Shown: positions 14,347 to 40,029 of the stretch, piece after piece
Layout: each line of letters opens with the position of its first letter
How positions within the stretch are numbered: the stretch's first letter is position 1
Assembly (NCBI RefSeq): GCF_008632125.1
Contig: NZ_VWRN01000019.1
Span: 62,001 to 126,000 of the forward strand
DNA length: 64,000 bases
Source of the DNA: Cupriavidus cauae
Lineage (GTDB): Bacteria > Pseudomonadota > Gammaproteobacteria > Burkholderiales > Burkholderiaceae
Direction of reading: 5' to 3'
Position numbers and translations under genes: made by a program
Notes under the pieces: generated by a model
Databases searched by the model: none
What the model was told of the DNA's origin: nothing
The model's input: only the letters and a program-made list of their open reading frames with translations

Positions 14347-15870
14347 TCAGCGCCGCCGCTCGTGCTCGATCAGCTGGGCCAGCAGCCGCACGCCTTCCTC
14401 GATCCGTTCCTCGGCAATCCCCGTGTAGCCCAGGCGGAAGTGCGGAGATGGCCCGTCGGCCGCGAAGAACACATCGCCCGGCTCGATGATCACGCCATGC
14501 CGCAGCGCGACATCGCCGAGCTTGCGTGCGTCGAGTCCCGGCGGCCCTTCGACCCAGAAGGACGACGCCCCCGGCGAATTCTGTACGCGGCATTGCGGCA
14601 GATGCCGCGCCAGCATGTCGCGCAGCACGGCCGCGCGGCGCTGGAAGATCGGCGCCACGCGCCGCAGCAGCGCGTCGTGGTGGCCCAGCGAGATGAACAG
14701 GGCGGTGGCACGCTGGTTGTTGGCCGGCGGGTGCCGCAGCATGTAGCGCCGCAGCGCCCGCGCCTGGCGGATCACCGTGCTGGGCGCGACGATATAGCCG
14801 AGCCGGATGCCGGGCACGAACGACTTCGACAGGCTGCCGACATAGATCACGCGGCCCTCGCGGTCCAGGCTTTTCAGCGCGGGGATCGGCTGCGTCAGCG
14901 CCGGATTCTCGGTGTCGTAGTCGTCCTCGATCAGCACCACGTCGTGCCGGTGCGCCTCGGCCAGCAACGCCTCGCGCCGGTCCAGCGGCATCGTCACCGT
15001 GGTCGGGCACTGGTAGCTCGGCGTAACGAAGGCATAGTCGCAGCGCGCCAGCTCGCCCTCGGGACGCAGGCCGTAGTCATCGACCGGCAGCGGCACGACC
15101 TCGCGTGCCCGCATGCCGAAGATCGCGCGCGCATCGCTGTAGCCCGGCTCCTCCAGCCCGACCACCGCGTCGCGCATCAGCAGATCGGCCAGCAGATAGA
15201 GCGCATGCTGGGCGCCCAGCGTGACCATGATCTCGTCGGGATTGGCCCAGACCCCGCGGCGCGGCAGCACGTGCCGCTGCAACTGCTCGATCAGCAGCGG
15301 ATCGTCCCGGTCGATCAGGTCCGAGGCCCAGCCGCGGATCTCCAGCACGGCCAGCGCCATGCGCGAGCATTCGCGCCAGTCCGCGGTCGGAAACAGCGCC
15401 GGATCGAACTGGCCATAGATGAAGGGGTAGGGGTAGTTCTGCCAGTCGTTGGGCTTGACGATCGCGCGCAGCCCGCTGATGTCGGGCAGCCGTTCGCTCC
15501 AGTCGGGGCCGGGGGATTCGCTACCGCCGTCCGTGCTGGCCGGCGTGCCGGCGGTGCCGGCGTTGCCCACGGACGGCGGCCGCGCCACGCTCGGCAGTTG
15601 TTCGACGACGAAGTAGCCGCGCCGCGGCCGTGTCTCGAGGAAGTGCTCGTCGACCAGCTGCTGGAAGGCCAGGATCACGGTATTGCGCGCGATGCCCAGC
15701 GTCGCGGCGAGTTCGCGGCTCGAGGGCAGCGCGCTGCCTTCGGGCAATTGCCGCGACAGGATCGCGGAAACGATCTGCTGGCGCAGCTGGGCCTGCAGGC
15801 TCAGGCCCGAATCGGCGGGCAATTGCAGCAGCCGATTCCAGAACGTGTTTCCCTTGCCCGCCGTGGCCAT
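14347..15870 (-). CDS. tauR: MocR-type PLP-dependent regulator, likely TauR
   Basis: A 507-residue fusion of a GntR winged helix (residues about 15-80: LQAQLRQQIVSAILSRQLPEGSALPSSRELA) to an aminotransferase-fold effector domain. The PLP lysine is in YVGSLSKSFVPGIRLGY. MocR proteins sense amines or amino acids through PLP. TauR of Rhodobacter is of this type and activates taurine genes with taurine. Here it is the last gene of the xsc-permease-tauXY operon, supporting the same role. The start at 15870 is the best fit; an ATG at 15909 lacks a ribosome-binding site. Confidence 0.85.
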   Translation of the reverse strand: MATAGKGNTFWNRLLQLPADSGLSLQAQLRQQIVSAILSRQLPEGSALPSSRELAATLGIARNTVILAFQQLVDEHFLETRPRRGYFVVEQLPSVARPPSVGNAGTAGTPASTDGGSESPGPDWSERLPDISGLRAIVKPNDWQNYPYPFIYGQFDPALFPTADWRECSRMALAVLEIRGWASDLIDRDDPLLIEQLQRHVLPRRGVWANPDEIMVTLGAQHALYLLADLLMRDAVVGLEEPGYSDARAIFGMRAREVVPLPVDDYGLRPEGELARCDYAFVTPSYQCPTTVTMPLDRREALLAEAHRHDVVLIEDDYDTENPALTQPIPALKSLDREGRVIYVGSLSKSFVPGIRLGYIVAPSTVIRQARALRRYMLRHPPANNQRATALFISLGHHDALLRRVAPIFQRRAAVLRDMLARHLPQCRVQNSPGASSFWVEGPPGLDARKLGDVALRHGVIIEPGDVFFAADGPSPHFRLGYTGIAEERIEEGVRLLAQLIEHERRR

Positions 15871-16007: not shown

Positions 16008-17492
16008 CTACAGCACGTCGTCCTTCAGGTGATACCAGTGGTACAGGAACCGCTGCCCCAGCCGCCGGAATGGTGCGAATGCCGGCGACTCGACCCACTC
16101 CCGCACATTGGGGAAGGGCAGCGCCGAACGGAAGATCGGCAGCTCCGGACCCGGGTTCTTGCCCGCGATCATCGCCGCCATGCGGCGGCCCGCCTGGGCC
16201 GAGTACATGACGCCGTTGCCGCCGTAGCCCATTGCGTAATAGAGGGTCTGCGCGGGATCGGGCTGGAAGATGCGCGGCATCATGTCGTGGCTGACGTCGA
16301 CCCAGCCCCACCACGAGTAGTCGATCGGAATGCCCTTGAGCGCCGGGAACTTGCGCACCATGTCGTCGACCAGCTTCTGCTCGTATTGGGGCCGCGGCGC
16401 GTCGGTGCCGGTGATCGCGCTGCGGCTGCCGATCTGCAGGCGGCCGTCCGGCATCAGCCGGTAGTAGTGGCGCAGGATGCGGGTGTCGGTGATCACCTGC
16501 GTCGTGCGGAAATTGCAGGCCGCGATTTCGTCGGGCGTCAGCGGCCGCGTCACGATCGAGTTCGACAGGATCGGGAACAGCCGATTCTTCAGATGGGGAT
16601 GCAGGCTCTGCGAGGTGTAGCCGCCGGTGGCGACGCCGACCGCGCGCGCCCGCACGATGCCGCCCGGCGTACGCAGGTAGTGCACGCCGTCGCGCGTGGT
16701 CCAGTCGAGCACCGGGCTCGACGGATGCACGGTGGCGCCCAGCGCGCGGGCGCGGCGCAGATAGCCGAAGGCCAGCTTGCCGGCATGGATGCCGATGCCT
16801 TCAGGCTCGTGCATCGCGCCGGCCGCCTCCTTGTCGTCGACGTATTCGCGCTTGACGGTATCGGCATCGAGAATGCGGGCGTCGTAGTGGAACACCTCGC
16901 GCAGCAGCCTGGCTTCCTTCTCCAGCGCCGGCATCGCCTCCGGACGATGCGCGATGTACAGATGGCCGCCCGGCTGCGGATCGCAGTCGATATCGCGGAT
17001 CAGCGTCTTGAAGGTCTCCATGCCGGCGCACACTTCCTCGTGCAGCCGCAGCGCGGCGTCCAGGCCGTAGCGCTGGATCCATTGCGAGCGCTTGAGCCGG
17101 CCCGAGGCGCATTGCGCCTGCCCGCCGTTGCGCGTACTGCAGCCCCAGCTGACGCGGTTGGCCTCGAGCACGGTCGCCTTGATGCCGTGTTCCTGCGCCA
17201 GGAAGATCGCGCAGGTCAGCCCGGTGAAGCCCGAGCCGATGATCGCGACATCGACGTCGACGTCGTGCGTGATCGGACCGTCGTCGGGCGGGGGCTCGCC
17301 GGCGGTGCCGATCCAGTAGGTCGGGGCGTAGTCGCGGCCCTGGCCGGGCGTCGGCGCGACCAGCGGGTCGTAGGCGGGATCGTAGGGCCGGGAAGGGCCC
17401 GTGGACCCGGTGTGTCCACCAGACTGCCCGCCCGACTGGCCGGGCGTCCCGTTCTCCCGCCCGATGGCGGTGATATCGGCAATGGCTTCCAT
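16008..17492 (-). CDS. tauY: Taurine dehydrogenase large subunit (DAO-fold flavoprotein), putative TauY
   Basis: A 494-residue FAD-dependent oxidoreductase of the D-amino-acid-oxidase fold. The dinucleotide motif GSGFTG is at residues 86-91, with the C-terminal FAD motif GYGGNGVMYSAQAGRRMA. It resembles gamma-glutamylputrescine oxidases and the TauY subunit of Rhodobacter/Cupriavidus taurine dehydrogenase, which deaminates taurine to sulfoacetaldehyde and passes electrons to the respiratory chain. The adjacent TauX-like gene and the xsc operon make TauY the best reading. The first 75 residues are an unusual Gly/Pro-rich extension (GQSGGQSGG). AGGAG precedes the ATG. It lies 28 bases after tauX. 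Confidence 0.85.
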   Translation of the reverse strand: MEAIADITAIGRENGTPGQSGGQSGGHTGSTGPSRPYDPAYDPLVAPTPGQGRDYAPTYWIGTAGEPPPDDGPITHDVDVDVAIIGSGFTGLTCAIFLAQEHGIKATVLEANRVSWGCSTRNGGQAQCASGRLKRSQWIQRYGLDAALRLHEEVCAGMETFKTLIRDIDCDPQPGGHLYIAHRPEAMPALEKEARLLREVFHYDARILDADTVKREYVDDKEAAGAMHEPEGIGIHAGKLAFGYLRRARALGATVHPSSPVLDWTTRDGVHYLRTPGGIVRARAVGVATGGYTSQSLHPHLKNRLFPILSNSIVTRPLTPDEIAACNFRTTQVITDTRILRHYYRLMPDGRLQIGSRSAITGTDAPRPQYEQKLVDDMVRKFPALKGIPIDYSWWGWVDVSHDMMPRIFQPDPAQTLYYAMGYGGNGVMYSAQAGRRMAAMIAGKNPGPELPIFRSALPFPNVREWVESPAFAPFRRLGQRFLYHWYHLKDDVL

Positions 17493-17520: not shown

Positions 17521-17997
17521 TCAGCCGCGCGAACCGGCCGCCAGCGCGGGACGGTCCTTGCGATAGGCGTTCTTGACCGCGATCTTGCCGTCGCGGAAGG
17601 TGAACACGTCGACCATGCGCGCCTCGATGCGCGAGCCGTCGGCCTTGGTGCCGCGGAAGGTCGATTCGCTGACGCCGCGGTCGCCGCAGACGAAATGCTC
17701 GCCGTCGAGCCAGGCCGCGTCCGGGAAGGTCTGCCAGGCCAGCTGGAAGCCCTCGCGCACCGCCTCGCGGCCGCTGAAGGTACGGCCGAACAGCTCGCCG
17801 CCGGCCACCGCGTGGAACACGCAGTCGTCGGTCATGAAGGACATCAGCGCGTCGATGTCGTGGCGGTTCCAGGCATCGCTGAAGGCCTGCAGCGTGGCGG
17901 CGGTGACGCCGCCGCTGGCGCCACCGGCCTGCTGTCCGGACAGGTTGCTGTCGGCCGCGGTCGCTTCGGTGCCGGCCTGCTTGCTTGCGTACTCCAC
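17521..17997 (-). CDS. tauX: SnoaL-like small subunit, putative TauX
   Basis: A 158-residue protein with an NTF2/SnoaL-like cone fold from about residue 33: AFSDAWNRHDIDALMSFMTDDCVFH, GREAVREGFQLAWQTFPDA and VDVFTFRDGKIAVKNAYRKDRP. The GTG start at 17997 follows GAGGAG. TauX, the roughly 16-kDa partner of TauY, is of this fold and size, and the two genes are 28 bases apart. As a stand-alone SnoaL protein no function could be named; the call rests on context. Confidence 0.8.
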   Translation of the reverse strand: MEYASKQAGTEATAADSNLSGQQAGGASGGVTAATLQAFSDAWNRHDIDALMSFMTDDCVFHAVAGGELFGRTFSGREAVREGFQLAWQTFPDAAWLDGEHFVCGDRGVSESTFRGTKADGSRIEARMVDVFTFRDGKIAVKNAYRKDRPALAAGSRG

Positions 17998-18171: not shown

Positions 18172-19629
18172 TCAGCGCCGTACCGCGTGGGCGCGGGGCA
18201 TGTCGCCCAGATGCTGCTGGTGCGGGTCGATCTCGCTCTCGCGCCGCTCCGCGCCGCGGCGGTACTGCCGACGGACGAGATAGACCAGCAGCAGGATGCC
18301 GAGGCTGACCACGCCGAGCAGCAGCGGCTTGCGCTGGTCCGGAATGAAGGCCATCGCCACCACGATGCCCGTCATGCCGAGGATCGCCACATAGGTCAGA
18401 TACGGATACATCCACATGCGCACGCGCAGCTTGTGCGGCGCCTCGCGTTCGAGCCGCGCGCGCAGCCGCAGCTGCGATACCGCGATCAGGATGTAGACGA
18501 AGATCGCCACCGTGCCGTACGAATTGACCAGAAAGGCGAACACCGTGTCGGGCGAGACGTAGGACATCACGACCGCGGCATAGCCGAACAGCGTCGAGAA
18601 CAGGATCGCGCGGACCGGCACGCCGTTGCGGTTCAACTTGGCCAGTCCGGCCGGGGCATCGCCGCGGCGCGTCAGCGCGAAGATCATCCGCGACGAGGCG
18701 TACAGGCCCGAGTTCAGCGCCGACAGCACCGCGGTCAGCACCACCGCGTTCATCACCTGCGCCGCGCCGCGGATGCCCATGGCGTCGAGCGCGCTGACAT
18801 ACGGCGTGGCGATGCCGGGCGAGTTCCACGGCACCAGGCACACCACCAGCAGCACCGAGCCGACATAGAACACCAGCACGCGCGTGATCACCGAGTGGGT
18901 GGCCTTGGCGACCGCCTTCTGCGGCTCCGCGGTCTCGGCCGCGGCGATGGTCACGATTTCCGCGCCGAAGTAGAAGCCCGTCGCCGCGACGGCGCCGGTC
19001 AGTACCGGCATGATGCCGTTCGGCGCGAAGCCGCCGTGCGCGCTCAGGTTGGCGACGCTGGGCGCGGTATCGGGCCACATGCCGAGCACGAACAGGCCGG
19101 CCAGGAACAGGAACACGACGATCGCGGCCACCTTGATCGAGGCGAACCAGAACTCGAACTCGCCGAAGGACTTGACCGAGAACAGGTTGGTCAGCGTCAG
19201 CATCACCAGCAGCACCAGGCTGATGGCCCAGGAGGGCACGTCGGGCAGCCAGTAGCGGATCAGGTCGGCGCCGGCCACGGCCTCGAGCGCGACCACGATG
19301 ACCCAGAAGTACCAGTACATCCAGCCGGTCAGGAAGCTGGCGAGCGCGCCGGCCTCGGGTTTGCCGTGCCATGCTTCGCGCGCGTATTCGTAGAAGGAGC
19401 CGACGGTGGGCAGCGCGCAGGCCATCTCGCCGAGCATCCGCATCACCAGCACCACCAGCATGCCGGTCAGCAGGAAGGACAGGACGGCCGCCGGGCCGGC
19501 CGACTTGATGACGACGCCGCTGCCGACGAACAGTCCGGCACCGATCACGCCGCCGAGCGCGATCATCGTCATGTGGCGCTGTTTCAGGCTGTGCTTGAGG
19601 CCGCGCGAGCCCTCGGGGTTATCCAGCAA
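18172..19629 (-). CDS. Amino acid permease (GabP/AnsP-like APC family)
   Basis: A 485-residue inner-membrane transporter with about 12 hydrophobic helices. It opens LKHSLKQRHMTMIALGGVIGAGLFVGSG, the signature of the amino-acid transporter (AAT) branch of the APC family, and has GAEIVTIAAAETAEPQKAV and SALNSGLYASSRMIFAL. A TTG start at 19629 with GGAG upstream is used. It lies between xsc and tauX on the same strand, so it likely imports taurine or a related omega-amino acid. GABA and beta-alanine are the usual substrates of its nearest relatives and are structurally like taurine. A 9-bp inverted repeat (19694-19720) lies in the gap to xsc. Confidence 0.88.
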   Translation of the reverse strand: MLDNPEGSRGLKHSLKQRHMTMIALGGVIGAGLFVGSGVVIKSAGPAAVLSFLLTGMLVVLVMRMLGEMACALPTVGSFYEYAREAWHGKPEAGALASFLTGWMYWYFWVIVVALEAVAGADLIRYWLPDVPSWAISLVLLVMLTLTNLFSVKSFGEFEFWFASIKVAAIVVFLFLAGLFVLGMWPDTAPSVANLSAHGGFAPNGIMPVLTGAVAATGFYFGAEIVTIAAAETAEPQKAVAKATHSVITRVLVFYVGSVLLVVCLVPWNSPGIATPYVSALDAMGIRGAAQVMNAVVLTAVLSALNSGLYASSRMIFALTRRGDAPAGLAKLNRNGVPVRAILFSTLFGYAAVVMSYVSPDTVFAFLVNSYGTVAIFVYILIAVSQLRLRARLEREAPHKLRVRMWMYPYLTYVAILGMTGIVVAMAFIPDQRKPLLLGVVSLGILLLVYLVRRQYRRGAERRESEIDPHQQHLGDMPRAHAVRR

Positions 19630-19776: not shown

Positions 19777-21579
19777 TTATACGTAATCCTTGTACTTGTC
19801 GAGCAGGCGGACCGGCTTGGACAAGGCATCGCGGCGGAACGGATCGCCCAGTTCGCGGGTGCACATGATTTCCACGATGGTGGTCTTGCCGTGGTTCATC
19901 TGCAGGTCGATGGCCTTCTTCAGCGCGGGGCCGACGTCTTCCAGCCGGTCGACCACGATGCCTTCGGCGCCCATCGCGCGGGCGATCTCGGCGAAGCTCG
20001 GATTGTCCAGCTCGCCGGCGACGAAGCGGCGGTTGTAGAAGTCCACCTGGTTCTTCTTCTCCGCGCCCCACTGGCGGTTGTGGAAGACCACCGCGGTGAC
20101 CGGGATGTTGTGGCGCACGCAGGTCATGGTTTCCATCAGGCTCATGCCCCAGGCGCCGTCACCCGCGTACGAGATCGCCGGACGGTGCGGCGCCGCGACC
20201 TTGGCGCCGATGATGGTGGGGAAGGCGTAGCCGCAATTGCCCCAGCTCATTGCCGCGAAGAAGCTGCGCGGCTTTTCGAAGCGCAGATAGCTGTTGGCCA
20301 CCGAGTTGATGTTGCCGATGTCGGTCGACACCATCACGTCGGCCGGCATGGCCTTCTCGAGTTCGCGCAGCACCTGGCGCGGATGCAGGTAGTAGCCGCC
20401 GTTCGGCGTGCGCTCGTTCTTCTGCTCCTCGATCATGTCCAGGCTGAACGGGTCGCGCTCGTGCGTCCACTCGTCCAGTTCCTTCTCCCAGGCCGCCTTT
20501 TCGGTGGCGATCTGGTCGGCGCGCGCGGCGCGGGTCGCGTCGCACGCCAGCGTGCGGTTGGCCAGGCGTTCGGTCAGCGCGACGGCGGCCGCCTTGGCGT
20601 CGCCGCAGATGCCGACCGAGATCTTCTTCACCAGGCCCAGCATCTTGTGGTCGGCATCGATCTGGATGATCTTGGCCGTCTTCGGCCAGTAGTCCATGCC
20701 GTGCTGCGGCAGCGTGCCGAACGGTCCGAGGCGCGAACCGAGCGCCACCACCACGTCGGCACGCGAGATCAGCTTCATCGCCGCCTTCGAGCCCTGATAG
20801 CCCAGCGGGCCGCACCACAGCGGGTGGCTGGCGGGGAAGGAATCGTTGTGCAGATAGCTGTTGACCACCGGCGCGCCCAGCCGCTCGGCCAGCGCCTTGC
20901 ATTCCTCGACGCCGTCGGCCATCACCACGCCGCCGCCGGAGATGATCACCGGGAACTTGGCCTGCGCCAGCAGCTCGGCCGCTTCGTTCAGGCTCTGCTC
21001 CCCGCCGGGGCCACGGTCCAGCCGGCGCGGCTGCGGGATCTCGGCCTTGATCTGCCCGTAGAAGTAGTCGCGCGGGATGTTCAGCTGGGTCGGGCCCATC
21101 TCGGCCATCGCGCGATCGAAGCAGCGGCCGGTGAATTCGGCCATGCGCGCCGGGTTGGTGACGTGGCCCTGGTACTTGGTGAACTCCTGGAACATCGGCA
21201 GCTGGTTGGCTTCCTGGAAGCCGCCCAGGCCGATGCCCATGGTGCCGGCCTCCGGCGTGACGATCACCACCGGGCTGTGCGCCCAGTAGGCCGCGGCAAT
21301 CGCGGTCACGCAGTTGCTGATGCCCGGACCGTTCTGGCCGATCACGACGCCGTGGCGGCCCGACACGCGGGCATAGCCGTCGGCCATGTGGCCCGCGCCC
21401 TGCTCATGCACCACCGGGATCAGGCGGATGCCGGCCGGCGCGAAGATGTCCATCGCATCCATGAAGGCCGAGCCCATGATGCCGAACATATCGGTGACGC
21501 CGTTGGCGGCGAGGGTTTCGACGAAGGCCTCGGAAGGCGTCATGGCCTGCGGGCCGGCGGTGGGGGTGTGGTCGGACAT
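19777..21579 (-). CDS. xsc: Sulfoacetaldehyde acetyltransferase
   Basis: A 600-residue thiamine-diphosphate enzyme that converts sulfoacetaldehyde plus phosphate to acetyl phosphate and sulfite. The start MSDHTPTAG at 21579 gives the usual Xsc length. The TPP-activating Glu59 is in VVHEQGAGHMADGYARVSG. The specific Xsc features are IGQNGPGISNCVTAIAAAYW and the TPP/Mg site GDGAWGMSLMETMTCVRHN. The neighbours Pta, TauE-type exporter and taurine dehydrogenase support it over oxalyl-CoA decarboxylase or acetolactate synthase. It is the first gene of a five-gene minus-strand operon, with a palindromic box 43 bases upstream of the start. Confidence 0.95.
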   Translation of the reverse strand: MSDHTPTAGPQAMTPSEAFVETLAANGVTDMFGIMGSAFMDAMDIFAPAGIRLIPVVHEQGAGHMADGYARVSGRHGVVIGQNGPGISNCVTAIAAAYWAHSPVVIVTPEAGTMGIGLGGFQEANQLPMFQEFTKYQGHVTNPARMAEFTGRCFDRAMAEMGPTQLNIPRDYFYGQIKAEIPQPRRLDRGPGGEQSLNEAAELLAQAKFPVIISGGGVVMADGVEECKALAERLGAPVVNSYLHNDSFPASHPLWCGPLGYQGSKAAMKLISRADVVVALGSRLGPFGTLPQHGMDYWPKTAKIIQIDADHKMLGLVKKISVGICGDAKAAAVALTERLANRTLACDATRAARADQIATEKAAWEKELDEWTHERDPFSLDMIEEQKNERTPNGGYYLHPRQVLRELEKAMPADVMVSTDIGNINSVANSYLRFEKPRSFFAAMSWGNCGYAFPTIIGAKVAAPHRPAISYAGDGAWGMSLMETMTCVRHNIPVTAVVFHNRQWGAEKKNQVDFYNRRFVAGELDNPSFAEIARAMGAEGIVVDRLEDVGPALKKAIDLQMNHGKTTIVEIMCTRELGDPFRRDALSKPVRLLDKYKDYV

Positions 21580-21878
21580 GCTTGCGGTCTCCGGTAGGTT
21601 GGGATCGTTGTGATCGTAAAACGGTACGTGATGTACCGAAAACTGTTGTTTCGCTGAAATGTAGGACGGACCGCAGGTATCGTCAATAGGAAAATCCATT
21701 ATTCGGAATGTGTTGTGTCTAAAAATGAGACTGAGCTATGATGGCTCCATGGAACCGCGGGAGCCATGGCGCGCCTGCGCCGCCCGGGACAGCCGGGACA
21801 TCGGGGACATCCCTCCAGCCTTGTCCGGCCTCATACAGCCTTATCCAGCCTCATAGAGCCTCATCCAGGAGAACCGAA
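21580..21878. promoter_or_regulatory. Divergent xsc / cobS-like promoter region
   Basis: A shared upstream region of 299 bases. It holds the perfect palindrome CGGTAC-gtgat-GTACCG (21622-21638) flanked by AAAA on both sides. From about 21775 to 21870 there are imperfect repeats of CCGGGACA and of GCCTCATCCAG ahead of the CobS-like ribosome-binding site. Confidence 0.7.
21618..21642. promoter_or_regulatory. Palindromic operator candidate upstream of xsc
   Basis: CGGTAC and GTACCG, six bases each, are separated by GTGAT and embedded in AAAA...AAAA. Fifteen bases of the left side (AAAACGGTACGTGAT) recur upstream of pta at 26805-26819. It is probably the site of the regulator of the sulfonate genes (TauR or another). 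Confidence 0.65.
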
Positions 21879-22853
21879 GTGGCGATCGACCTTGCCAGCG
21901 TGGAACCGGACCGCATGGTGTCGGTGCGTGATGTGTTCGGCATCGACAGCGCGATGCGGGTGCCGGCCTTCGGCGTGCGCGATGACCACGTGCCGGAAAT
22001 CGATCCGGGCTACCGCTTCGAGCCGGAGGTCACGCTGGCGATCCTGTCCGGCTTCGTGCGCAATCGCCGCGTGCTGGTGCAGGGGCTGCACGGCACCGGC
22101 AAGTCGACCCATATCGAACAGGTGGCGGCGCGGCTGAACTGGCCGTGCCTGCGCGTCAATCTGGATGGGCATATCGGGCGCATGGACCTGGTCGGGCGCG
22201 ACACCGTGGTGCTGCGCGATGGCCAGCAGGTCACCGAATTCCAGGAGGGCATCGTGCCGTGGGCGCTGCAGCGGCCGATCGCGCTGGTGTTCGACGAATA
22301 CGACGCGGGCCGTCCGGACGTGATGTTCGTGATCCAGCGCGTGCTCGAGCGCGATGGCCGCTTCACGCTGCTGGACCAGAACCGCGTGATCCAGCCGCAT
22401 CCGTTCTTCCGGCTGTTCGCGACCGCCAATACCGTCGGGCTCGGCAACCTGACCGGCATGTATCACGGCACCCATCTGCTGAACCACGCGCAGATCGACC
22501 GCTGGAACGTGGTGGCGACGCTCGACTATCTGCCGCGCGAGGCGGAGATCGACATCGTGCTGGCGCGCGTGCCGGAGCTGGCCGACGCGGCGGGACGCGA
22601 GCTGGTCGGCGCGATGGTCGCCGTCGCTCAGCTGACGCGCGAAGGGTTTGCCGCGGGCGATGTGTCGACGCTGATGTCGCCGCGCACCGTGATCGCCTGG
22701 GCCGAGAACTGCCAGATCTTCCGCGATCCGGCGCTGGCGTTCCGGCTCAGCTTCCTGAACAAGTGCGAGCCGGGCGAGCGCCCGATCGTCGCCGAGTATT
22801 TCCAGCGGGGCTTCGGCACCGAGCTGGAGCCCTGCGGCGACGCGGCGGCCTGA
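21879..22853 (+). CDS. CobS-like AAA+ ATPase (cobaltochelatase small-subunit family)
   Basis: A 324-residue MoxR-branch AAA+ ATPase. Walker A GLHGTGKST is at residues 69-77, Walker B LVFDE at 136-140 and a sensor motif LFATANT follows. The segments STHIEQVAARLNWPCLR, VFDEYDAGRPDVMFVIQRVLE and GTHLLNHAQIDRW are closely CobS-like. CobS with CobT powers cobalt insertion by CobN, yet no cobN or other cobalamin gene is here. The GTG start at 21879 follows CCAGGAG; the frame to 21738 is repeat-rich leader. It is divergent from xsc and two bases ahead of the CobT-like gene, so both are probably co-translated with the sulfonate regulon. Confidence 0.88.
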   Translation: MAIDLASVEPDRMVSVRDVFGIDSAMRVPAFGVRDDHVPEIDPGYRFEPEVTLAILSGFVRNRRVLVQGLHGTGKSTHIEQVAARLNWPCLRVNLDGHIGRMDLVGRDTVVLRDGQQVTEFQEGIVPWALQRPIALVFDEYDAGRPDVMFVIQRVLERDGRFTLLDQNRVIQPHPFFRLFATANTVGLGNLTGMYHGTHLLNHAQIDRWNVVATLDYLPREAEIDIVLARVPELADAAGRELVGAMVAVAQLTREGFAAGDVSTLMSPRTVIAWAENCQIFRDPALAFRLSFLNKCEPGERPIVAEYFQRGFGTELEPCGDAAA

Positions 22854-22855
22854 CG

Positions 22856-24736
22856 ATGTTGGCACCGGCGATACCGGAGGCCGAGCACGCGGCGGCGTCG
22901 AAGGTTGCGGCCGCGGCGACGCGGGAGGTTGGGGCCGTGTTGTCGCCGAAGGTTGGGGCCGCAACGCCGCCGGAGGCTGGGACCGCGGTGGGGCCGGAGC
23001 AACCGTTGCCCGCGTCGACCCAGCGCCGGCGCGAGGCCTTGTGCGCGGCGGCCCTGCGTGCGCTGGCGGGAGACGCCACGCTGCATTACCGCGCCGGCAG
23101 GCCCTGGCGCGGCCAACGGCCGCTGCCGTTGCACGCCCCGCACTTGCTGACCGATGCCGCACGCGATACCTTCGCCGACCTGCGCGGCAGCGCGGACGCC
23201 GTCGCGCTGCGCCTGCGGCATGGCGATGCGGCCTTGCACCGCGCGCTGCGTCCCGCCGATCCCGTCGCGCGGCTGCTGTTCGAACTGTTCGAGCAGCTGC
23301 GCTGCGAAACCCATCTGCCCGCCGGCATGCCGGGCGTGGCCGCCAACCTGCACCGGCGCTTCGCGCAATGGTCGCTGGCCTTCCATCGCTCCGGGCTGAC
23401 CGAAGGGCGTTTCGGCATCCTGATCTACACGGTCGCGCAGGTGGTCTGGTCGCGCCTGTCGGGCCGGCCGGTGATCGAGGAGACCGAGGACCTGATCGAG
23501 GCCACGCGCGCCGCCATCGTGCCGGCGCTGGGCACCGCGCTGGCCGGCATGCGGCGCACGCGCGCCGACCAGCGCGCCTTTGCCGAACATGCGCTCGCCG
23601 CGGCCGAGATGGTGGCGGCGATGCTGCGCGACGATGCGCGGCGAGCCGGCCTGGCCGACGACGAGGCGCGGGAATCGCCCGAGACCGTGCGCGACGGCTT
23701 CTCGCTGCTGCTCGATTTCGAGGACGAGGCGCCGTTGCAGCAGGGAGCCGGTGCCGGCCCCGGCGGCGCGCGCGCCGGCGCCCACGGTGCACTCGCACCG
23801 GGCTACGCGGCCTTCACCACGCGCTACGATCACGAGCTGCGCGCCGCCACGCTGGCGCGCCAGGCTTCGCTGCAGGCATGGCGCGAACGCCTGGACCGGC
23901 GCATCGTCGAGGGCGGCATCAATCCGGTCCGCATCGCGCGCACGCTGTCGTCCGCCTTCGCGATACCGGCCGCCGACGGCTGGTCGTCCGGCGAAGAGGA
24001 GGGCCGGCTCGATCGCAGCCGGCTCGCGCAACTGGCCTGCGCCGGCGGCCAGCCGCGCATTTTCCGCCAGCCGCGGCTGCAGCCGCGCACAGACGCGGTA
24101 CTGAGTTTCCTGATCGATTGCTCGGGCTCGATGAAGGCCCATATCGACCAGATCGCCTTGCTGGTCGACGTGATGACCCGCGCGGCCGATGCCGCGGGCC
24201 TGGTCACCGAAGTGCTCGGCTTCACCACCGGCGCCTGGAACGGCGGCCGCGTGGCGCGCGACTGGCAGGCCGCGGGCCGCCCGCCATCGCCTGGCCGCCT
24301 GAACGAGGTCTGCCATCTGGTGTTCAAGGATGCCGACACCAGCTGGCGCCGCGCACGAACCGGCATCGCCGCGCTGTTCAAGGCCGACCTGTTCCGCGAA
24401 GGGATCGACGGCGAGGCGGTCGACTGGGCCTGCGCCCGCCTGCTGTCCCGCCCGCAGTCGCGCCGCCTGCTGGTGGTGGTATCCGACGGCAGCCCGATGG
24501 ACCGAGCCACCGCGCAGGCCAACGGCGAGCGGCTGCTGGACGACCATCTGAAGGACGTGGTGGCGCGCCACGAGGCGCAGGGGCGCATCGAAGTGATGGG
24601 GCTCGGCGTCGATCTGGACCTGAGCCCTTACTACCGGCGCCATTTCCCGCTGGATACCTCGCGGCCGCTCGACACGGCGGCGATCGACGCGATCGCGCGC
24701 TGGGTGGGGAGCGGGGGACGGGGAGGGCTGGGGTAG
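22856..24736 (+). CDS. CobT-like protein with C-terminal VWA domain
   Basis: A 626-residue partner of the CobS-like ATPase, starting two bases after its stop. Residues from about 60 (ALCAAALRALAGD) to 250 match the CobT N-terminal helical part. A VWA domain begins near residue 410 with MIDAS motif DCSGSMKAH (D421, S423, S425), then GFTTGAWNGG and VVSDGSPMD. The family's acidic linker is reduced to a short Gly/Ala-rich stretch near residue 300. The first 50 residues are imperfect Ala/Pro/Val-Gly repeats from tandem DNA repeats (22890-22990). MoxR-VWA pairs remodel or load metals into partner enzymes; here the partner is unknown. Confidence 0.85.
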   Translation: MLAPAIPEAEHAAASKVAAAATREVGAVLSPKVGAATPPEAGTAVGPEQPLPASTQRRREALCAAALRALAGDATLHYRAGRPWRGQRPLPLHAPHLLTDAARDTFADLRGSADAVALRLRHGDAALHRALRPADPVARLLFELFEQLRCETHLPAGMPGVAANLHRRFAQWSLAFHRSGLTEGRFGILIYTVAQVVWSRLSGRPVIEETEDLIEATRAAIVPALGTALAGMRRTRADQRAFAEHALAAAEMVAAMLRDDARRAGLADDEARESPETVRDGFSLLLDFEDEAPLQQGAGAGPGGARAGAHGALAPGYAAFTTRYDHELRAATLARQASLQAWRERLDRRIVEGGINPVRIARTLSSAFAIPAADGWSSGEEEGRLDRSRLAQLACAGGQPRIFRQPRLQPRTDAVLSFLIDCSGSMKAHIDQIALLVDVMTRAADAAGLVTEVLGFTTGAWNGGRVARDWQAAGRPPSPGRLNEVCHLVFKDADTSWRRARTGIAALFKADLFREGIDGEAVDWACARLLSRPQSRRLLVVVSDGSPMDRATAQANGERLLDDHLKDVVARHEAQGRIEVMGLGVDLDLSPYYRRHFPLDTSRPLDTAAIDAIARWVGSGGRGGLG

Positions 24737-24844: not shown

Positions 24845-25618
24845 TTATGCCGAAGGCGCCGCGAACCACTGCCACAGGGGCCCGGCCATCAGATACGCGC
24901 CCAGCACCACCAGCACCCCGAACGCCACCCGCCGCGTCGCCTCGGCCGACAGCGGCGGCGGGAAGCGCCGTGCCGCGATCGTGCTCAGCGCGACCACCGG
25001 GAAGGCCAGCGCGGCCTGCAGCCAGACGTCGCTGGCCAGTTCGCCTTGCCAGGCGCTGTAGGCGGTGCGCACCGCCGAGGTGGTGGTGAAGACCAGGATC
25101 AGCGCGCAGCGGATCTGCACCATGTTCAGCGGCTGGCGATAGAACTGGAAGATCAGCGGCGGCCCGGAGACGCCGAACAGGCCGCTGAGCAGGCCGCCGC
25201 AGACGCCGCTGACGAAGAAGCTGCCGTCGCCGGAGCGGCTGGACAACGCGGCGGGACGCAGGGCCGCGCCGATGCCGCCGTACAGCACCACGGCGCCGAG
25301 CATCAGCTGCAGCACGCCGGCGGCGGTGCCGCTCAGGTAATGCAGCAGCACGACACCGGCCACCACCGACGGCAGGATGCCGAGCGTGGCGGCCCGCACC
25401 GCGCGCCAGTCGATATGGTGCAGCTTGCCGGGCAGCGCGAGTGCGCCGTTGGCGAGCGTCAGCAGGCTGACCAGCGCGGCCAGCGTGGCGACCGGCGCCA
25501 GATGCAGGCCGCTGGCCGCGCCCATCACGATCAGACCCATGCCGAACCCGGTCACGGTCTGGAAATAGCTGCCGAGGCCGAGCAGGGCCAGTACCGGCAG
25601 CAAGGTGTCGAGACTCAT
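24845..25618 (-). CDS. tauE: TauE/SafE family sulfite/sulfoacetate exporter
   Basis: A 257-residue inner-membrane protein with about eight hydrophobic helices and the two TauE/SafE repeats (GLGSYFQTVTGFGMGLIVMG and CGGLLSGLFGVSGPPLIFQF). In Cupriavidus necator TauE exports sulfite made by Xsc. The ATG at 25618 shares its A with the TGA stop of pta, so the two are translationally coupled. Confidence 0.9.
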   Translation of the reverse strand: MSLDTLLPVLALLGLGSYFQTVTGFGMGLIVMGAASGLHLAPVATLAALVSLLTLANGALALPGKLHHIDWRAVRAATLGILPSVVAGVVLLHYLSGTAAGVLQLMLGAVVLYGGIGAALRPAALSSRSGDGSFFVSGVCGGLLSGLFGVSGPPLIFQFYRQPLNMVQIRCALILVFTTTSAVRTAYSAWQGELASDVWLQAALAFPVVALSTIAARRFPPPLSAEATRRVAFGVLVVLGAYLMAGPLWQWFAAPSA

Positions 25619-26712
25619 CAGGACTGCGTGGCTCCCGATGATGTGGTGCCAGTCGCCGGGCCTCCAGCCATGCCCGGCAGCGCCATCTGCGCGCTGGCAT
25701 CGCCCGCTTCGAGGTCGGCGGCCTGCGCCTGCACCACGGTGACCGCGATCACGTGAAAGATGTCGTCCGCGCTGCAGCCGCGCGACAGATCGTTGGCCGG
25801 GCGCCGCAACCCTTGCAGCATCGGCCCGATCGCCACGGCGCCGCCCAGGCGCTCGGCGAGCTTGTAGCCGATATTGCCGGCCTCCAGGCTCGGGAACACC
25901 AGCACATTGGCATGCCCATGGACCTGCGAGGCGGGCAGCTTGCGCTCCGCGATCTCCGCGACGATGGCCGCGTCGAGCTGCACGTCGCCGTCGATGGCCA
26001 GGTCGGGTCGCAGCGCGCGCACGCGTTGCGTGGCCGCGGCGACCTTGTCGACGGCGGCGTGGTGCGCGCTGCCATTGGTCGAGAACGACAGCATCGCCAC
26101 GCGCGGCGTCTCCATCAGCAGGCTCTGCGCGCTGTCGGCGGCGGCCATCGCGATCTCGGACAGCGCCTCGGCGTCCGGGTCGATCACCAGGCCGCAGTCG
26201 GAGAAGATCAGCCCGCCCTTGAGCGAGTGGAAGGGCTCGCAGAACATCATCAGGAAGAAGCTCGATACCAGCCGGAAGGACGGCGCGATGCCGATGATCT
26301 GGATCGCGTGGCGCACCACGTCCGCGGTCGTATGGACCGCGCCCGCCACCGAGCCGTCGGCGTCGCCGGCGCGCACCATCAGATTGGCGAAGCACAGCGG
26401 CGCCAGCACGTCGCGCTGCGCCTGCTCGGGCGTCATGCCCCTGGACTGGCGCAGCGCCAGCCATTGCTGCGCGTAGCGGTCCCGCTGCGCGGCGCTGGCG
26501 GGATCGACCAGCTCCATGCCGTCCAGCGCGATGCCGTGCCGCTCGGCCGCATCGGCGATGCGGGCGGCATCGCCGACCAGCACGATGCGGGCGATGCCCT
26601 CTTGCGTGGCGCGCCGCGCGCCTTGCAGCACGCGCGGGTCCTCCGCCTCGCACAGCACGATGCGCCGGGGAGACGAGCGCGCGCGCTCGATGATGCGGTG
26701 GATCGCTTTCAT
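25618..26712 (-). CDS. pta: Phosphate acetyltransferase
   Basis: A 364-residue single-domain Pta (acetyl phosphate + CoA to acetyl-CoA + phosphate). Motifs are RRIVLCEAEDPRVLQGA, DGSVAGAVHTTADVVRHAIQIIG and ANVLVFPSLEAGNIGYKLAERLGGA. It lacks the N-terminal DRTGG regulatory part of long Pta forms, as in sulfonate-linked Pta. It overlaps tauE by one base. A box nearly identical to that of xsc lies about 97 bases upstream, so it likely drains acetyl phosphate formed by Xsc. The start at 26712 has only a weak ribosome-binding site; the frame to 26961 runs through the promoter and is rejected. The C-terminus carries a short Gly/Ser/Thr-rich tail. Confidence 0.93.
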   Translation of the reverse strand: MKAIHRIIERARSSPRRIVLCEAEDPRVLQGARRATQEGIARIVLVGDAARIADAAERHGIALDGMELVDPASAAQRDRYAQQWLALRQSRGMTPEQAQRDVLAPLCFANLMVRAGDADGSVAGAVHTTADVVRHAIQIIGIAPSFRLVSSFFLMMFCEPFHSLKGGLIFSDCGLVIDPDAEALSEIAMAAADSAQSLLMETPRVAMLSFSTNGSAHHAAVDKVAAATQRVRALRPDLAIDGDVQLDAAIVAEIAERKLPASQVHGHANVLVFPSLEAGNIGYKLAERLGGAVAIGPMLQGLRRPANDLSRGCSADDIFHVIAVTVVQAQAADLEAGDASAQMALPGMAGGPATGTTSSGATQS

Positions 26713-27204: not shown

Positions 27205-28215
27205 ATGCGTTGGATCGAGCGTTGGATCAAGCAGTTGGCAACGGGCGCGGTGCTGGCCGCCGCCGTGCAGACGGGCGCGCTGGCACAGCCCAGGGAAGTG
27301 GTGATCGCCTACCAGGACATGGTGGTGCCATGGCGCCATGTGCAGGACGCCAAGGAGATCGAGAAGCAGACCGGCTACAAGGTGTCGTTCCGCCAGTTCT
27401 CCGGCGGCGGCGACGTGATCCGCGCGATGGCGTCGGGACAGATCGCGATCGCGGAGGCCGGCACCTCGCCGATTGCCTCGGCCCTGTCGCAGGGGCTGGA
27501 CGTCGAGCTGTTCTGGATCCTCGACGACATCAACGCCGCCGAGGCGATGGTCGCGCGCAACGGCACGCGCATCGAGAACGTCGCCGACCTGAAGGGGAAG
27601 CGCATCGGCGTGCCGTTCGTCTCGACCACGCACTATCACACGCTGGTCGCGCTGGAGCAGGCCAAGGTCGATCCGAAGCAGGTCCGCATCATGAACATGC
27701 GGCCGCCGGAAGTCGCCGCCGCCTGGCAGCGCGGCGACATCGACGCGACCTTCATCTGGGACCCGGTGCTCGCGCGCATCAAGCCGACCGGCAAGGTGCT
27801 GCTGACCTCGGGACAGATCGCCCAGTCCACCGGCAAGGCGACCTTCGACGGCATGATCGTCAGCAAGAAGTTCGCGCGCGAGAACCCGGACTTCATGGTC
27901 AAGTTCGTCAGGATGCTGGCGGCCGCGGACGACAACTACCGCAAGAACAAGGCGGCGTGGACCGCGGATTCGCCGATGGTCAAGACGGTGGCCAGGATCT
28001 CGGGCGCCAAGCCCGAGGACGTGCCGGGCAGCATGTCGCTGTACGCCTTCCCGACGCTGGAGGAACAGGCCTCGGCGCGCTGGCTCGGCGGCGGCGCGGC
28101 CAAGGCCCTGCAGTCGGCGGCGCAGTTCCTGAAGGAGCAGGGCACGATCCAGACCGTGCTGCCCGACTACTCCGCCGGCGTCAACGCCGAGTGGGTCAAG
28201 CGGGCAATGCGTTGA
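27205..28215 (+). CDS. tauA: Taurine ABC transporter substrate-binding protein
   Basis: A 336-residue periplasmic protein with signal peptide ending near GALAQ. The mature part ([17 protein letters not shown], then [33 protein letters not shown] and [15 protein letters not shown]) is the TauA pattern of the SsuA/NMT1-like family. TauB and TauC homologues follow directly. AGGA lies about nine bases before the ATG; the longer frame to 26815 crosses the promoter. Confidence 0.93.
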
Positions 28216-28271
28216 GCCGCTGTCCGTCCCTATCCGCCAGTCATTTGCCAACGACCCAACAGGGAACCGAG

Positions 28272-29048
28272 ATGGCCAAACTCGAAATCGACAACCTCAG
28301 CGTCAACTATGGGGGCGCGGGCAGTACGCAGACGCTCGCGCTGTCGCAGGTCAACCTGACCATGGAGCGCGGCGACTTCGTCGTCGCGCTGGGCGCCTCC
28401 GGCTGCGGCAAGACCACGCTGCTGTCCTGCATCGCCGGCTTCATGCAGCCGTCCGAAGGGGAGATTCGCCTCGACGGCCACGCCGTCAACGGTCCAGGCG
28501 CGGAGCGCGGCGTGGTGTTCCAGAAGCATGCCCTGATGCCGTGGCTCAATGTCGCCGACAACGTCGCGCTGGGTTTGCGCATGCGTGGCGTCGGCCGCGC
28601 GGAGCGGCTGCGCATCGCGCGCGACAAGCTGGCGCTGGTCGGGCTGGAGCACGTCGCCGACAAGCCGGTCTATCAGCTGTCGGGCGGCATGCAGCAGCGC
28701 GTCGGCATTGCACGCGCGCTGGCCAACGATCCGGCGGTGATGCTGATGGACGAACCGCTCGGCGCGCTCGATGCGCTGACGCGCGAGTCGATCCAGGCGC
28801 TGATCCTGAAGCTGTGGGCACGCGAGCAGAAGATCGTTTTCTTCATCACGCACAGCGTCGAGGAGGCGCTGTTCCTGGCCACGCGGCTGATCGTGATGAC
28901 GCCGTCGCCGGGCCGCATCGCCCACACCTACGAGCTGCCGTACGCGCGCCGCTATATCGAATGTGGCGATGCGCGCGCCGTCAAATCCGATCCGGATTTC
29001 ATTCGCCATCGCGAGGAAATCGTCGACCTGATCCATGCCACGCCATAA
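28272..29048 (+). CDS. tauB: Taurine ABC transporter ATP-binding protein
   Basis: A 258-residue ABC ATPase. Walker A is GASGCGKTT, the Q loop is in [11 protein letters not shown], the signature is LSGGMQQR and Walker B is [12 protein letters not shown], followed by [12 protein letters not shown] as in the SsuB/TauB group. It acts on the cytoplasmic face with TauC. It starts 56 bases after tauA. Confidence 0.93.
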
Positions 29049-29058
29049 GGATAAGCCG

Positions 29059-29997
29059 ATGCCTGCCACCGTTCAGAGCCTGTCGGGCGCGCCGCGCGCG
29101 CCGGGCGCCATCGTTGCCGACGAGATGTCTTCCACCACGAACGCCGCCGCCGTTGGGTCGGTGGGGCCGGCGGGGCCGGCCGCGCCGGCACGCAAGGTCC
29201 GCACGGTCTCCGGTTACCGGATGCCGGGCGAGGGCTCCAGCTCGCGGATTTCCGCGGTCACCGTGGTGTCGCTGCTGGTACTGTGGTGGGTCGCCAGCCA
29301 TTTCGGCTGGGTGCCGCCGCTGTTCCTGCCGACGCCGGAGTCGATCGGCAAGGCCTTTGTCGATGCGTGGAACGGCAATGTGCAGGGCGGCCTGCCGCTG
29401 CTCGACCATTTCTGGGCCAGCATGGTGCGCGTGTTCGGCGCCTTTGCGCTGGCGGCCATCACCGCGGTGCCGGTCGGCGTGCTGATGGGCGTGTCGCGCA
29501 TCGCGCGCGGCGTCTTCGATCCGCCGATCGAGTTCTACCGGCCGCTGCCGCCGCTGGCCTATCTGCCGCTGATCGTGATCTGGTTCGGCATCGACGAGAC
29601 CTCGAAGGTGCTGCTGATCTTCCTGGCCTGCTTCGCGCCGATGGCGATGTCGGCGCGCGCCGGCGTGCGTTCGGTGACGATCGAGCAGATCAACGCGGCC
29701 TATTCGATGGGGGCCACGCCGTGGCAGGTGATTCGCCATGTGGTGTTGCCGGCCGCGCTGCCCGACATCCTGACCGGCATGCGCATCGCGATCGGCTTCG
29801 GCTGGACCACGCTGGTCGCCGCCGAGATGGTGGCCGCCACCGCGGGCCTGGGCCAGATGGTGCTCAACGCCTCGAACTTCCTGCGTACCGACGTGGTGGT
29901 GATGGGCATCGTGCTGATCGGCCTGATCGCCTATGGCTTCGATCTGCTGATGCGCGGCATGGAGAAGTGGCTGGTGCCGTGGAAGGGACGGGCTTGA
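29059..29997 (+). CDS. tauC: Taurine ABC transporter permease
   Basis: A 312-residue permease with about six membrane helices and the binding-protein-dependent EAA loop (INAAYSMGATPWQVIRHVVLPAALPDILTG). The start at 29059 follows AAGGA by seven bases; an ATG at 29035 would overlap tauB. The first 50 residues carry Ala/Gly/Pro repeats (GSVGPAGPAAPA) not usual for TauC. It completes TauABC. Confidence 0.93.
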   Translation: MPATVQSLSGAPRAPGAIVADEMSSTTNAAAVGSVGPAGPAAPARKVRTVSGYRMPGEGSSSRISAVTVVSLLVLWWVASHFGWVPPLFLPTPESIGKAFVDAWNGNVQGGLPLLDHFWASMVRVFGAFALAAITAVPVGVLMGVSRIARGVFDPPIEFYRPLPPLAYLPLIVIWFGIDETSKVLLIFLACFAPMAMSARAGVRSVTIEQINAAYSMGATPWQVIRHVVLPAALPDILTGMRIAIGFGWTTLVAAEMVAATAGLGQMVLNASNFLRTDVVVMGIVLIGLIAYGFDLLMRGMEKWLVPWKGRA

Positions 29998-30025: not shown

Positions 30026-30138
30026 CGTCCCTCTCCCCTCCGCGGGGGAGGGATAGAGGGTGAGGGCGGGGGACGGTTGGCGGATAGCGAAAGCCGGAGG
30101 CAAGACGAGCCGCGCCCGCAGCCCGACCCCCGCCCTCA
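30026..30138. terminator. Nested inverted repeats between convergent tauC and IclR genes
   Basis: A GC-rich hairpin CCCTCTCCC...GGGAGGG (30029-30060) resembles the common Burkholderiales/Xanthomonas intergenic repeat. A second perfect 12-bp inverted repeat pairs 30061-30072 with 30127-30138, the latter overlapping the IclR stop codon. It probably ends both transcripts. Confidence 0.65.
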
Positions 30139-31023
30139 GAACGTCGACGCCAGATCCCTTGCCGCCTGCTGCAGCCGCGGCACGAATTCCAGCGAACGCG
30201 ACAGCGGCGAGCGCACCGTCGGTGCATGGACCGCGAGGGCGGCCACCACCTGGCCGCGCTCGTCGCGTACCGGCACCGCGACGCAGCTGATGCCGGCGAC
30301 GAACTCCTCGTTGTCGACGCCGATCTGCTTGTGGGCGCAGCGGTCCAGCTCCGCCTCCAGCAGTTCGACATCGGTGATGGTGTTCTGCGTGAAGCGTTCC
30401 AGCGGCAGTTGCTTCACCAGCGCGCGGCGCTGCTCGCGCGGCAGCAATCCGAGCAGCAGCTTGCCGCTGGCCGAGCAGTGCAGCGGCACGTGGGAGCCGG
30501 GCTTCAAGTCCAGCCGCAGCGGCCAGGGCGCCTCCATGCGGTCCAGATACAGCACGGCGCTCTCGTGCAGCATGGTCAGGTTGACGGTCTCGCCGATGTC
30601 CTCGACCAGCCGCGACAGGATCGCGTGGCGCAGCTGGCGGGTGCCGGAGTGCGTGACGATGGCCACGCCGAGGCGGGCCAGCCGCGGCCCGACCGCATAG
30701 GCGTTGCGCGCGCCGGGTTCGCGGATCACCAGCCCGCCCGCTTCGAGCGCGCCCAGCATCCGGTGCAGCGAGGCCTTGGGCGCCTCGAAGCCCTGCATGA
30801 TCTCCGCCAGCGTCAGCGGCCGGTCGGCCGCGACCAGGAATTCGAGCAGCGCGAAGGCGCGCAGCGTGGGCGTGTCGCCACGGTCGTTGGCGGCTTCGCT
30901 GGGCGAGGGCGGGGGCGGCACCGGGGCGGGCCGCGCGGCGGCCTTGGCCGCGGCGGCCGAGTTGGCCTTGGCGGCCCCGCGCGCGCGTGGAGCGGACGCC
31001 GCGGCGGTGGTGGCGGTTTTCAA
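30136..31023 (-). CDS. IclR family transcriptional regulator
   Basis: A 295-residue regulator. A TTG start at 31023 is preceded by GGAGGA; the longer frame runs into the next gene. After a 50-residue Ala/Pro-rich lead comes the winged helix (LRAFALLEFLVAADRPLTLAEIMQGFEAPKASLHRML) and the IclR effector domain (VPLHCSASGKLLLGLLPREQR, DNEEFVAGISCVAVPVRDERGQVVAALAVHAPT). It is downstream of the EamA transporter and the AEP operon on the same strand, and convergent with tauC. Its target is unknown. Confidence 0.9.
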   Translation of the reverse strand: MKTATTAAASAPRARGAAKANSAAAAKAAARPAPVPPPPSPSEAANDRGDTPTLRAFALLEFLVAADRPLTLAEIMQGFEAPKASLHRMLGALEAGGLVIREPGARNAYAVGPRLARLGVAIVTHSGTRQLRHAILSRLVEDIGETVNLTMLHESAVLYLDRMEAPWPLRLDLKPGSHVPLHCSASGKLLLGLLPREQRRALVKQLPLERFTQNTITDVELLEAELDRCAHKQIGVDNEEFVAGISCVAVPVRDERGQVVAALAVHAPTVRSPLSRSLEFVPRLQQAARDLASTF

Positions 31024-33333: not shown

Positions 33334-33390
33334 GGTCGAATCTCCTGGCAGGGGGGTGGCGGAGCGGGAATCGTGTGGTTGTTGTTGTGG

Positions 33391-35180: not shown

Positions 35181-35184
<4 letters not shown>
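33391..35184 (-). CDS. phnU: AEP ABC transporter permease, two permease domains fused
   Basis: A 597-residue membrane protein with two binding-protein-dependent permease domains in tandem (residues about 70-300 and 330-590), each with an EAA-like loop (AADALGTSTVRKFFTITVPAARYGLVSA and VSASLKVPFYTTFLRVTVPACLPAIVE). It corresponds to the fused PhnU2 form of the putative AEP importer, and so replaces separate PhnU and PhnV. The N-terminus has a Pro/Val repeat (PPVPPLPPVPSAPPVPP) encoded by repeated DNA (about 35105-35160). It overlaps phnT by four bases (ATGA). Confidence 0.93.
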
Positions 35185-36290
<1,106 letters not shown>

Positions 36291-36339
36291 GGATGTGGGC
36301 TCCATCGAGTCGGACGGGGGCGCGCGTCTGGTGAATGCG

Positions 36340-36460: not shown

Positions 36461-36482
36461 ATGCCCTGCTGCCTGCCGCTGC

Positions 36483-38613: not shown

Positions 38614-40029
<1,416 letters not shown>

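Follow-up and report, generated by a model that had tools for sequence, protein, structure and literature searches.

A CobS/CobT-like AAA+/VWA gene pair beside xsc in Cupriavidus cauae: a candidate remodelling machine for one clade of sulfoacetaldehyde acetyltransferase

We analysed a stretch of 64,000 nucleotides from Cupriavidus cauae (contig NZ_VWRN01000019.1, positions 62,001 to 126,000; hereafter the window), in which two adjoining genes resembling cobS and cobT, here called the pair, lie beside xsc, the gene for sulfoacetaldehyde acetyltransferase (Xsc). An earlier note, made from the DNA letters, had placed the two genes two bases apart, divergent from xsc and with tauE-pta on their other side, and this arrangement proved exact to the base:

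19777..21579, minus strand: xsc, sulfoacetaldehyde acetyltransferase, 600 amino acids, presumed client (TIGR03457, 1084 bits, cut-off 676.4)
21622..21638, no strand: palindrome CGGTAC-GTGAT-GTACCG between xsc and cobS, presumed shared operator
21879..22853, plus strand: CobS-like MoxR-type AAA+ ATPase, 324 amino acids, presumed motor (PF12556 and PF07728; GTG start)
22856..24736, plus strand: CobT-like protein, 626 amino acids, presumed client adaptor (PF06213 and PF11775, the latter VWA; ATG start)
24845..25618, minus strand: tauE, sulfite exporter family (PF01925)
25618..26712, minus strand: pta, phosphate acetyltransferase (TIGR00651, 347.6 bits, cut-off 311.2; start position from the gene caller)

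The GTG start of the CobS-like reading frame is preceded, by eye, by the ribosome site AGGAGAA, and degenerate 10-base tandem repeats (21814-21868) lie directly 5' of that site. The CobT-like protein is laid out as a helical N-domain, a linker and a VWA domain with a full metal ion-dependent adhesion site (MIDAS), and the CobT arrangement that had been claimed for it was borne out by both Pfam domains and by the completeness of the MIDAS residues. The Walker A and B residues of the CobS-like protein (K75, S76, D139 and E140) were invariant in 10/10 aligned sequences, and the MIDAS residues of the CobT-like protein (DxSxS, T, D: D421, S423, S425, T458 and D544) in 38/38. Among the named loci that we compared, which are the best 80 of at least 437 CobT relatives and in which gene presence was scored by identity and coverage thresholds, cobS adjoins cobT in 80/80; together with the invariant MIDAS, this rules out chance adjacency. 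With intact Walker A/B motifs in one protein and a complete MIDAS in its adjacent VWA partner, the two form an AAA+/VWA pair, and the invariance of both sets of residues suggests that the machine should be active. In phmmer searches against the PDB the best chains for the CobS-like protein were CobS (8e-142), with CbbQ and NorQ also listed, and those for the CobT-like protein were CobT (2.2e-67). The AlphaFold model of the CobT-like protein has a mean predicted local distance difference test score (pLDDT) of 77.1, falling below 50 in linker residues 268-315; its best Foldseek matches in the PDB were chains of NorQ-NorD complexes, followed by the MIDAS of midasin, and the CobT structures (9uka series) were absent from the top 50 Foldseek rows, where the database copy was perhaps without them. 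Among the matches listed, the closest named relatives of the CobT-like protein come from Cupriavidus sp. and C. gilardii (90-92%).

With the cobaltochelatase CobNST (PDB 9ujv/9uka series) the pair shares a CobS_N plus AAA_5 motor, a CobT N-domain joined to a MIDAS VWA domain and the gene order cobS-cobT; unlike CobNST, it comes without CobN, scores below both curated cut-offs, forms a CobT clade of its own, has a weaker acidic stretch and sits in a sulfonate neighbourhood. The CobS-like protein reached 519.9 bits with the CobS equivalog TIGR01650, below the cut-off of 558.55, and the CobT-like protein 262.5 bits with the CobT equivalog TIGR01651, far below the cut-off of 759.05. A search of the entire assembly (5.75 Mb in 74 contigs, with a completeness rating of 100%) gave no match to CobN (PF02514), so that its absence, which the earlier note had reported for the 64 kb, extends to the rest of the genome, and no cobN lies just outside the window, an outcome named in the note as one that would tell against it. 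Nor did the CobT-like protein group with true cobaltochelatase in its phylogeny, another such outcome: 48 taurine-type sequences were split from 21 ordinary ones by one branch with support 100 in the CobT tree. The CobS tree sets 48 apart from 18 ordinary ones less surely, by a short branch with support of only 87. The CobT-like protein has diverged far and the CobS-like protein little, as we would expect if the client had changed and the engine had not. The maximum share of D and E in 60 residues was 0.33-0.55 in 18/21 ordinary CobT (0.17-0.23 in the other three) and 0.15-0.32 in 10 taurine-type CobT out of 98. A longer CobT match in one further genome (G248, 343 bits) was rejected as ordinary, since it groups with ordinary CobT and its genome has CobN. 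For C. cauae the cobaltochelatase reading is thus rejected on the missing CobN, the two missed cut-offs and the separate CobT clade, and the pair appears to derive from the CobS/CobT family while no longer serving cobaltochelatase, a view that we hold jointly with the remodelling reading set out below.

The note had suggested checking whether xsc-linked pairs co-occur with tauXY rather than with cobN. In all three genome samples the pair tracked Xsc, and in the genus and phylum samples it did not follow CobN. The genus sample comprised the window's own genome and 35 others, one of them (G012) only 54% complete, and a weak CobT match of 22 bits in G043 was not counted as a pair. A CobT-like protein was found in 19/36 genomes, and these 19, with no others, also had an Xsc over the cut-off (Fisher p 1e-10), the two genes lying at most 28 kb apart on one contig in 18/19 and on different contigs in G017. 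CobN occurred in 8/19 pair genomes, one of these by a partial match (G034), versus 13/17 of the others, an association in the opposite direction (Fisher p 0.049). In the phylum sample (398 genomes), where taurine-type CobT was defined as at least 560 bits, the 7 genomes with such a protein were the 7 top Xsc scorers among the 27 over the cut-off; CobN was present in 2/7 (G009 and G253). In the order sample (305 genomes, 37 with Xsc at 1e-170), the pair was found in 10/11 genomes whose Xsc is at least 83% identical to that of the window and in 0/26 whose Xsc is at most 76% identical (p 3e-8); here two matches of 313 and 281 bits (G500 and G581) were counted as ordinary CobT, G500 being among the 26. 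In 9/10 of the order-sample pair genomes no more than about 2.2 kb separates cobT from xsc. In a tree of Xsc (54 rows, of which the window and its own genome, G000, are identical) the 34 pair-linked rows and G555 fell into a single clade, whose branch of length 0.38 has a Shimodaira-Hasegawa-like approximate likelihood ratio (SH-aLRT) support of 100; mapping the pair on this tree needs two changes, which we interpret as a single gain and a single loss. Pair loci span Burkholderiaceae, Oxalobacteraceae, Zoogloeaceae, Rhodocyclaceae, Chromobacteriaceae, Neisseriaceae and Halomonadaceae; the pair also occurs in a Photobacterium, with which two genomes of the same class (G239 and G309) group. The pair is therefore linked to, and co-inherited with, Xsc of one clade, G555 being the exception.

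Around the core of the locus lie the following genes, the names TauX and TauY being those that we take to apply to the SnoaL-like and oxidoreductase genes:

14347..15870, minus strand: MocR-family regulator (GntR plus aminotransferase), TauR-like by position (PF00392 and PF00155)
16008..17492, minus strand: flavin adenine dinucleotide (FAD) oxidoreductase of the DAO family, taken as TauY (PF01266)
17521..17997, minus strand: SnoaL/NTF2-like protein, taken as TauX (PF12680)
18172..19629, minus strand: amino-acid permease of gamma-aminobutyrate type (PF00324; TIGR01773, 547.6 bits, below its cut-off of 678.1)
27205..29997, plus strand: tauABC-type ABC transporter with an NMT1-like binding protein (best NCBIfam models taurine TauB and TauC, both below cut-off)
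30136..30921, minus strand: IclR-family regulator (PF01614 and PF09339)

Across the 80 named loci, xsc is in the stretch in 58, pta in 59, iclR in 62 and the TauX and TauY candidates in 52 each. The 22 loci without xsc in the stretch comprise six with an xsc fragment at the contig end, six with xsc elsewhere in the genome (among them L142, L144, L154 and L176), four untested (L136, L161, L162 and L170) and six with no trace of it (L109, L113, L129, L135, L141 and L149). The six no-trace contigs end at most 444 bp upstream of cobS and the collection holds no contigs below 3 kb, so that the absence may be an assembly gap, although this is unproved. We also found xsc duplicated around cobST(-tauE-pta), as whole copies in L138, L172 and L098 and as end fragments in L102, L169 and L177.

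The upstream regions of these genes yielded the palindrome consensus CGGWAC-N5-GTWCCG, which is exact in the window, where it precedes xsc and cobS by about 43 and 240 bases, respectively. Allowing one mismatch, we counted 76 copies in 51/80 named loci, versus 24 at any position once this DNA had been base-shuffled (one shuffle), and 55/76 copies, in 45/80 loci, fall in the 400 bases that precede xsc or cobS. Nine loci in which xsc and cobS are not divergent neighbours (L112, L116, L122, L123, L128, L132, L133, L174 and L175) have a separate copy ahead of each gene, at a distance of 26-29 bases for xsc and 57-68 for cobS. Among loci with pair-lacking Xsc the palindrome occurs in 3/21, in two of them about 90-100 bases before xsc, and an IclR gene stands beside xsc in 18/21 of these loci (L305-L324 and L092). 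The palindrome is likely read by the IclR regulator. A second exact copy lies at 42468-42484, directly after a regulator-like gene that follows the phosphonate genes described below. The TauR operator CTGGACYTAA before cobS was rejected as a candidate, with matches in 9/81 regions versus a shuffled expectation of 22, and 33 in the window versus 26 expected; a sigma-70 scan gave one 9-of-12 site on the xsc strand, which we did not use.

We hypothesise that the pair serves a single clade of Xsc as a dedicated remodelling machine of the MoxR AAA+/VWA type, working much as CbbQO works on Rubisco, and give this reading, together with the loss of the cobaltochelatase role, a probability of roughly 0.55. 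Contact with Xsc, remodelling dependent on adenosine triphosphate (ATP) and the nature of what is removed or inserted are parts of this proposal that we infer. The CobS-like protein would be the ATP-driven ring. The CobT-like protein would act as the adaptor and take hold of Xsc with its VWA domain, which bears the MIDAS, a role modelled on those of CbbO for Rubisco and NorD for nitric oxide reductase. Movement driven by ATP would then open Xsc, serving its maturation or, more likely in our view, its rescue from an inhibited state.

Three known systems of this kind offer themselves for comparison. The Rubisco activase CbbQO is likewise a MoxR AAA+ motor with a MIDAS VWA adaptor; separate pairs are specific for two Rubisco forms, the adaptor MIDAS binds an acidic residue on the Rubisco surface, and the Rubisco C-terminus takes part (PMC4660213). 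Here, unlike in CbbQO, the predicted client is an enzyme dependent on thiamine diphosphate (ThDP), the adaptor is of CobT type instead of CbbO, and activation is a proposal. NorQD (PMC13036017, PMC9976466) is also an AAA+ and VWA pair, the one returned first by Foldseek for the CobT-like model, and its motor has been proposed to twist and stretch the adaptor linker (PMC13036017); its client, the nitric oxide reductase cNOR, needs iron, unlike the ThDP-dependent Xsc. RavA-ViaA, which we liken by description only, is a MoxR and VWA pair acting on specific enzymes, with a different client (PMC10585395).

Candidate contacts on Xsc come from a comparison of 70 pair-linked with 19 pair-lacking sequences, in which G555 was set aside and the partial Xsc of L120 and L178 were left out. 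At 28 sites a residue is fixed in at least 97% of the 70 and rare in the 19, a pattern confounded with ancestry. E132 is replaced by K or R in 19/19 pair-lacking Xsc compared, and the loop carrying E389 is a gap in all 19. In a separate comparison the C-terminal tail LDKYKDYV or a one-step variant of it was found in 59/59. E132, the E389 loop and the C-terminus may thus be points of contact, all three being confounded with ancestry. The tail was rejected as a tag specific to the pair when it was also found in the pair-lacking G553 and G509.

The earlier note had proposed that the pair loads a metal or a cofactor into a sulfonate enzyme, TauXY, Xsc or another oxygenase. The first part, that the pair lies outside cobaltochelatase in this genome and tracks xsc, stands, and the client narrows to Xsc as a more likely common partner than TauXY; loading itself is one possibility among others, for the Pfam domains of Xsc mark it as a ThDP enzyme, and repair or remodelling is then no less likely than the insertion of a metal. 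The reaction of Xsc produces sulfite next to the ThDP, and thiamine is cleaved by sulfite (PMC8839250), so our preferred guess is that the opened Xsc would release a dead-end or sulfite-cleaved ThDP. In its full form, this would make the machine a repair activase of Xsc, built from cobaltochelatase parts, that ejects the cleaved or dead-end cofactor and lets fresh ThDP bind, an idea that we put forward tentatively, its chance of being right in every part being fairly low. The actinobacterial TauR regulon includes thiG (PMC5320631), which would fit a raised demand for thiamine.

Several observations weigh against the proposal of a machine dedicated to Xsc. G555, which has the same genus code as the pair-bearing G044 and G702, keeps the Xsc of the clade, pta and TauY and is without the pair, so the pair is not strictly required. 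Nor does it accompany Xsc in general: it is missing from 20/20 phylum-sample genomes with more distant Xsc (45-48% identical), which lie outside the window's class and which we take to be Alphaproteobacteria. Among 15 genomes reached through the named loci, an intact Xsc was not found in 11 (five with contig-end fragments, six with none). The palindrome is missing, at up to one mismatch, in 29/80 named loci and was found in only 7/18 further loci, a set in which the G555 locus was checked too, with those of the Photobacterium and of G239 and G309 among the 11 without it. The occurrence of the tail in G553 and G509 makes it no diagnostic of the pair, the Xsc AlphaFold model (pLDDT 54) is too poor to place the contact residues, and the CobS-like proteins separate from ordinary CobS with support of only 87. 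Finally, the neighbourhoods of pair-lacking Xsc, which we viewed for 21/26 genomes and listed gene by gene for eight, are of another kind: 20/21 are without TauXY and 21/21 without a gene similar to the pta of the window, and 5/8 of those listed (L306, L311, L315, L318 and L321) combine an acylating-type aldehyde dehydrogenase with a CoA (AMP-dependent) ligase, presumably SauS/SauT-like, and are probably sulfoacetate clusters. The Xsc clade is thus confounded with the pathway, so that the partner could instead be some other feature of taurine/isethionate clusters.

The alternative that follows from this confounding is that the client is another taurine/isethionate enzyme, for instance TauXY in need of cofactor insertion, or Pta, with Xsc as a fellow traveller. 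The frequency of TauX, TauY and pta in the named loci and their near absence beside pair-lacking Xsc speak for it. On the other side, 12/58 loci with pair and xsc have neither TauX nor TauY in the stretch, a count that covers stretches only and includes several cut contigs, although four of the 12 (L138, L148, L157 and L160) cover about 10 kb on each side; in the stretches fetched from C. campinensis and G009 a GMC dehydrogenase and a sulfatase-like gene stand in place of TauXY. G509 has TauXY and an Xsc of another clade without the pair, the single case that separates the pathway from the Xsc clade, and G555 has TauY and pta without it. The 12 loci together with G509 and G555 disfavour TauXY as an obligatory partner, and we regard the whole alternative as unlikely.

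A second possibility, formally a sub-case of the claim that Xsc is the client, is that the pair supplies freshly synthesised Xsc with a cofactor or metal (Mg/ThDP) and has no part in repair. The closest folds of the CobT-like model belong to NorQ-NorD chains, cNOR depends on NorQD to receive its iron (PMC13036017), and the long Xsc branch coincides with the pair. Set against this, more distant Xsc occur without the pair. ThDP enzymes generally load their cofactor unaided, and loading alone seems to us similarly improbable. It is also rather doubtful, and a little more so, that the pair has a general part in sulfite or aldehyde stress, or a regulatory one directed elsewhere, and shares its expression with xsc because both respond to sulfonates: the shared palindrome by itself names no client, but the pair tracks one Xsc clade and is lacking in the 20 phylum genomes with distant Xsc, whose reaction, judging from the family name, should also release sulfite. 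That this is an ordinary cobaltochelatase ST pair serving a CobN elsewhere and standing beside xsc by accident is largely refuted for this genome and very improbable, since the strong likeness to PDB CobS and the modest support of the CobS branch are set against two models under their curated cut-offs, a separate CobT clade and a CobN missing here, in 11/19 pair genomes of the genus and in 5/7 of the phylum sample.

No description of the pair with xsc was found in the literature searched, which was mostly open and left subscription papers, including a 2003 one on Xsc, outside reach; in the main text of the TauR regulon study (PMC5320631) "CobS" and "chelatase" have 0 occurrences. CobS/CobT-like genes at no fewer than 80 named loci are liable to be misread as B12 genes, as in Caballeronia sp. 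NK8, where the CobT-like gene is annotated "cobalt chelatase". Should Xsc prove to be the client, it would be of a kind new to AAA+/VWA machines, and an enzyme central to taurine and isethionate breakdown would have a keeper of its own; CobST-type motors could then be tested on a soluble enzyme, free of tetrapyrrole chemistry. The question lends itself to a direct test, as close relatives differ in whether they carry the pair (G044 and G702 do, G555 does not).

Some further gene neighbours were seen along the way. Several Cupriavidus loci, L057, L060 and L087 among them, carry between cobST and xsc an island with genes for a Haem_oxygenas_2 protein, two 2Fe-2S ferredoxins and a ferredoxin reductase, together with HbpS-like, amidase and ornithine-cyclodeaminase-like proteins and an aldehyde dehydrogenase; its haem-oxygenase-like gene occurs in 13 genus genomes fetched and in 7/80 named loci, and the island is possibly a new oxygenase pathway feeding sulfoacetaldehyde. 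In Caballeronia sp. NK8 (L094, 11576-14193) two genes follow cobT, one for a GTP-binding protein that by eye resembles COG0523 and one for an amidohydrolase; the TauR regulons of Comamonadaceae are reported to include COG523 and COG1574 proteins (PMC5320631). At least 11 Aeromonas plasmids (about 103-135 kb) carry a protein, annotated as hypothetical, that shares about 29% identity with the C-terminal portion of the CobT-like protein. Beside the taurine cluster, the window holds a 2-aminoethylphosphonate route (32203-41569) with PhnW, the transporter parts PhnU2 and PhnS2, the phosphonoacetate hydrolase PhnA and a phosphonoacetaldehyde dehydrogenase, all of them over their NCBIfam cut-offs.

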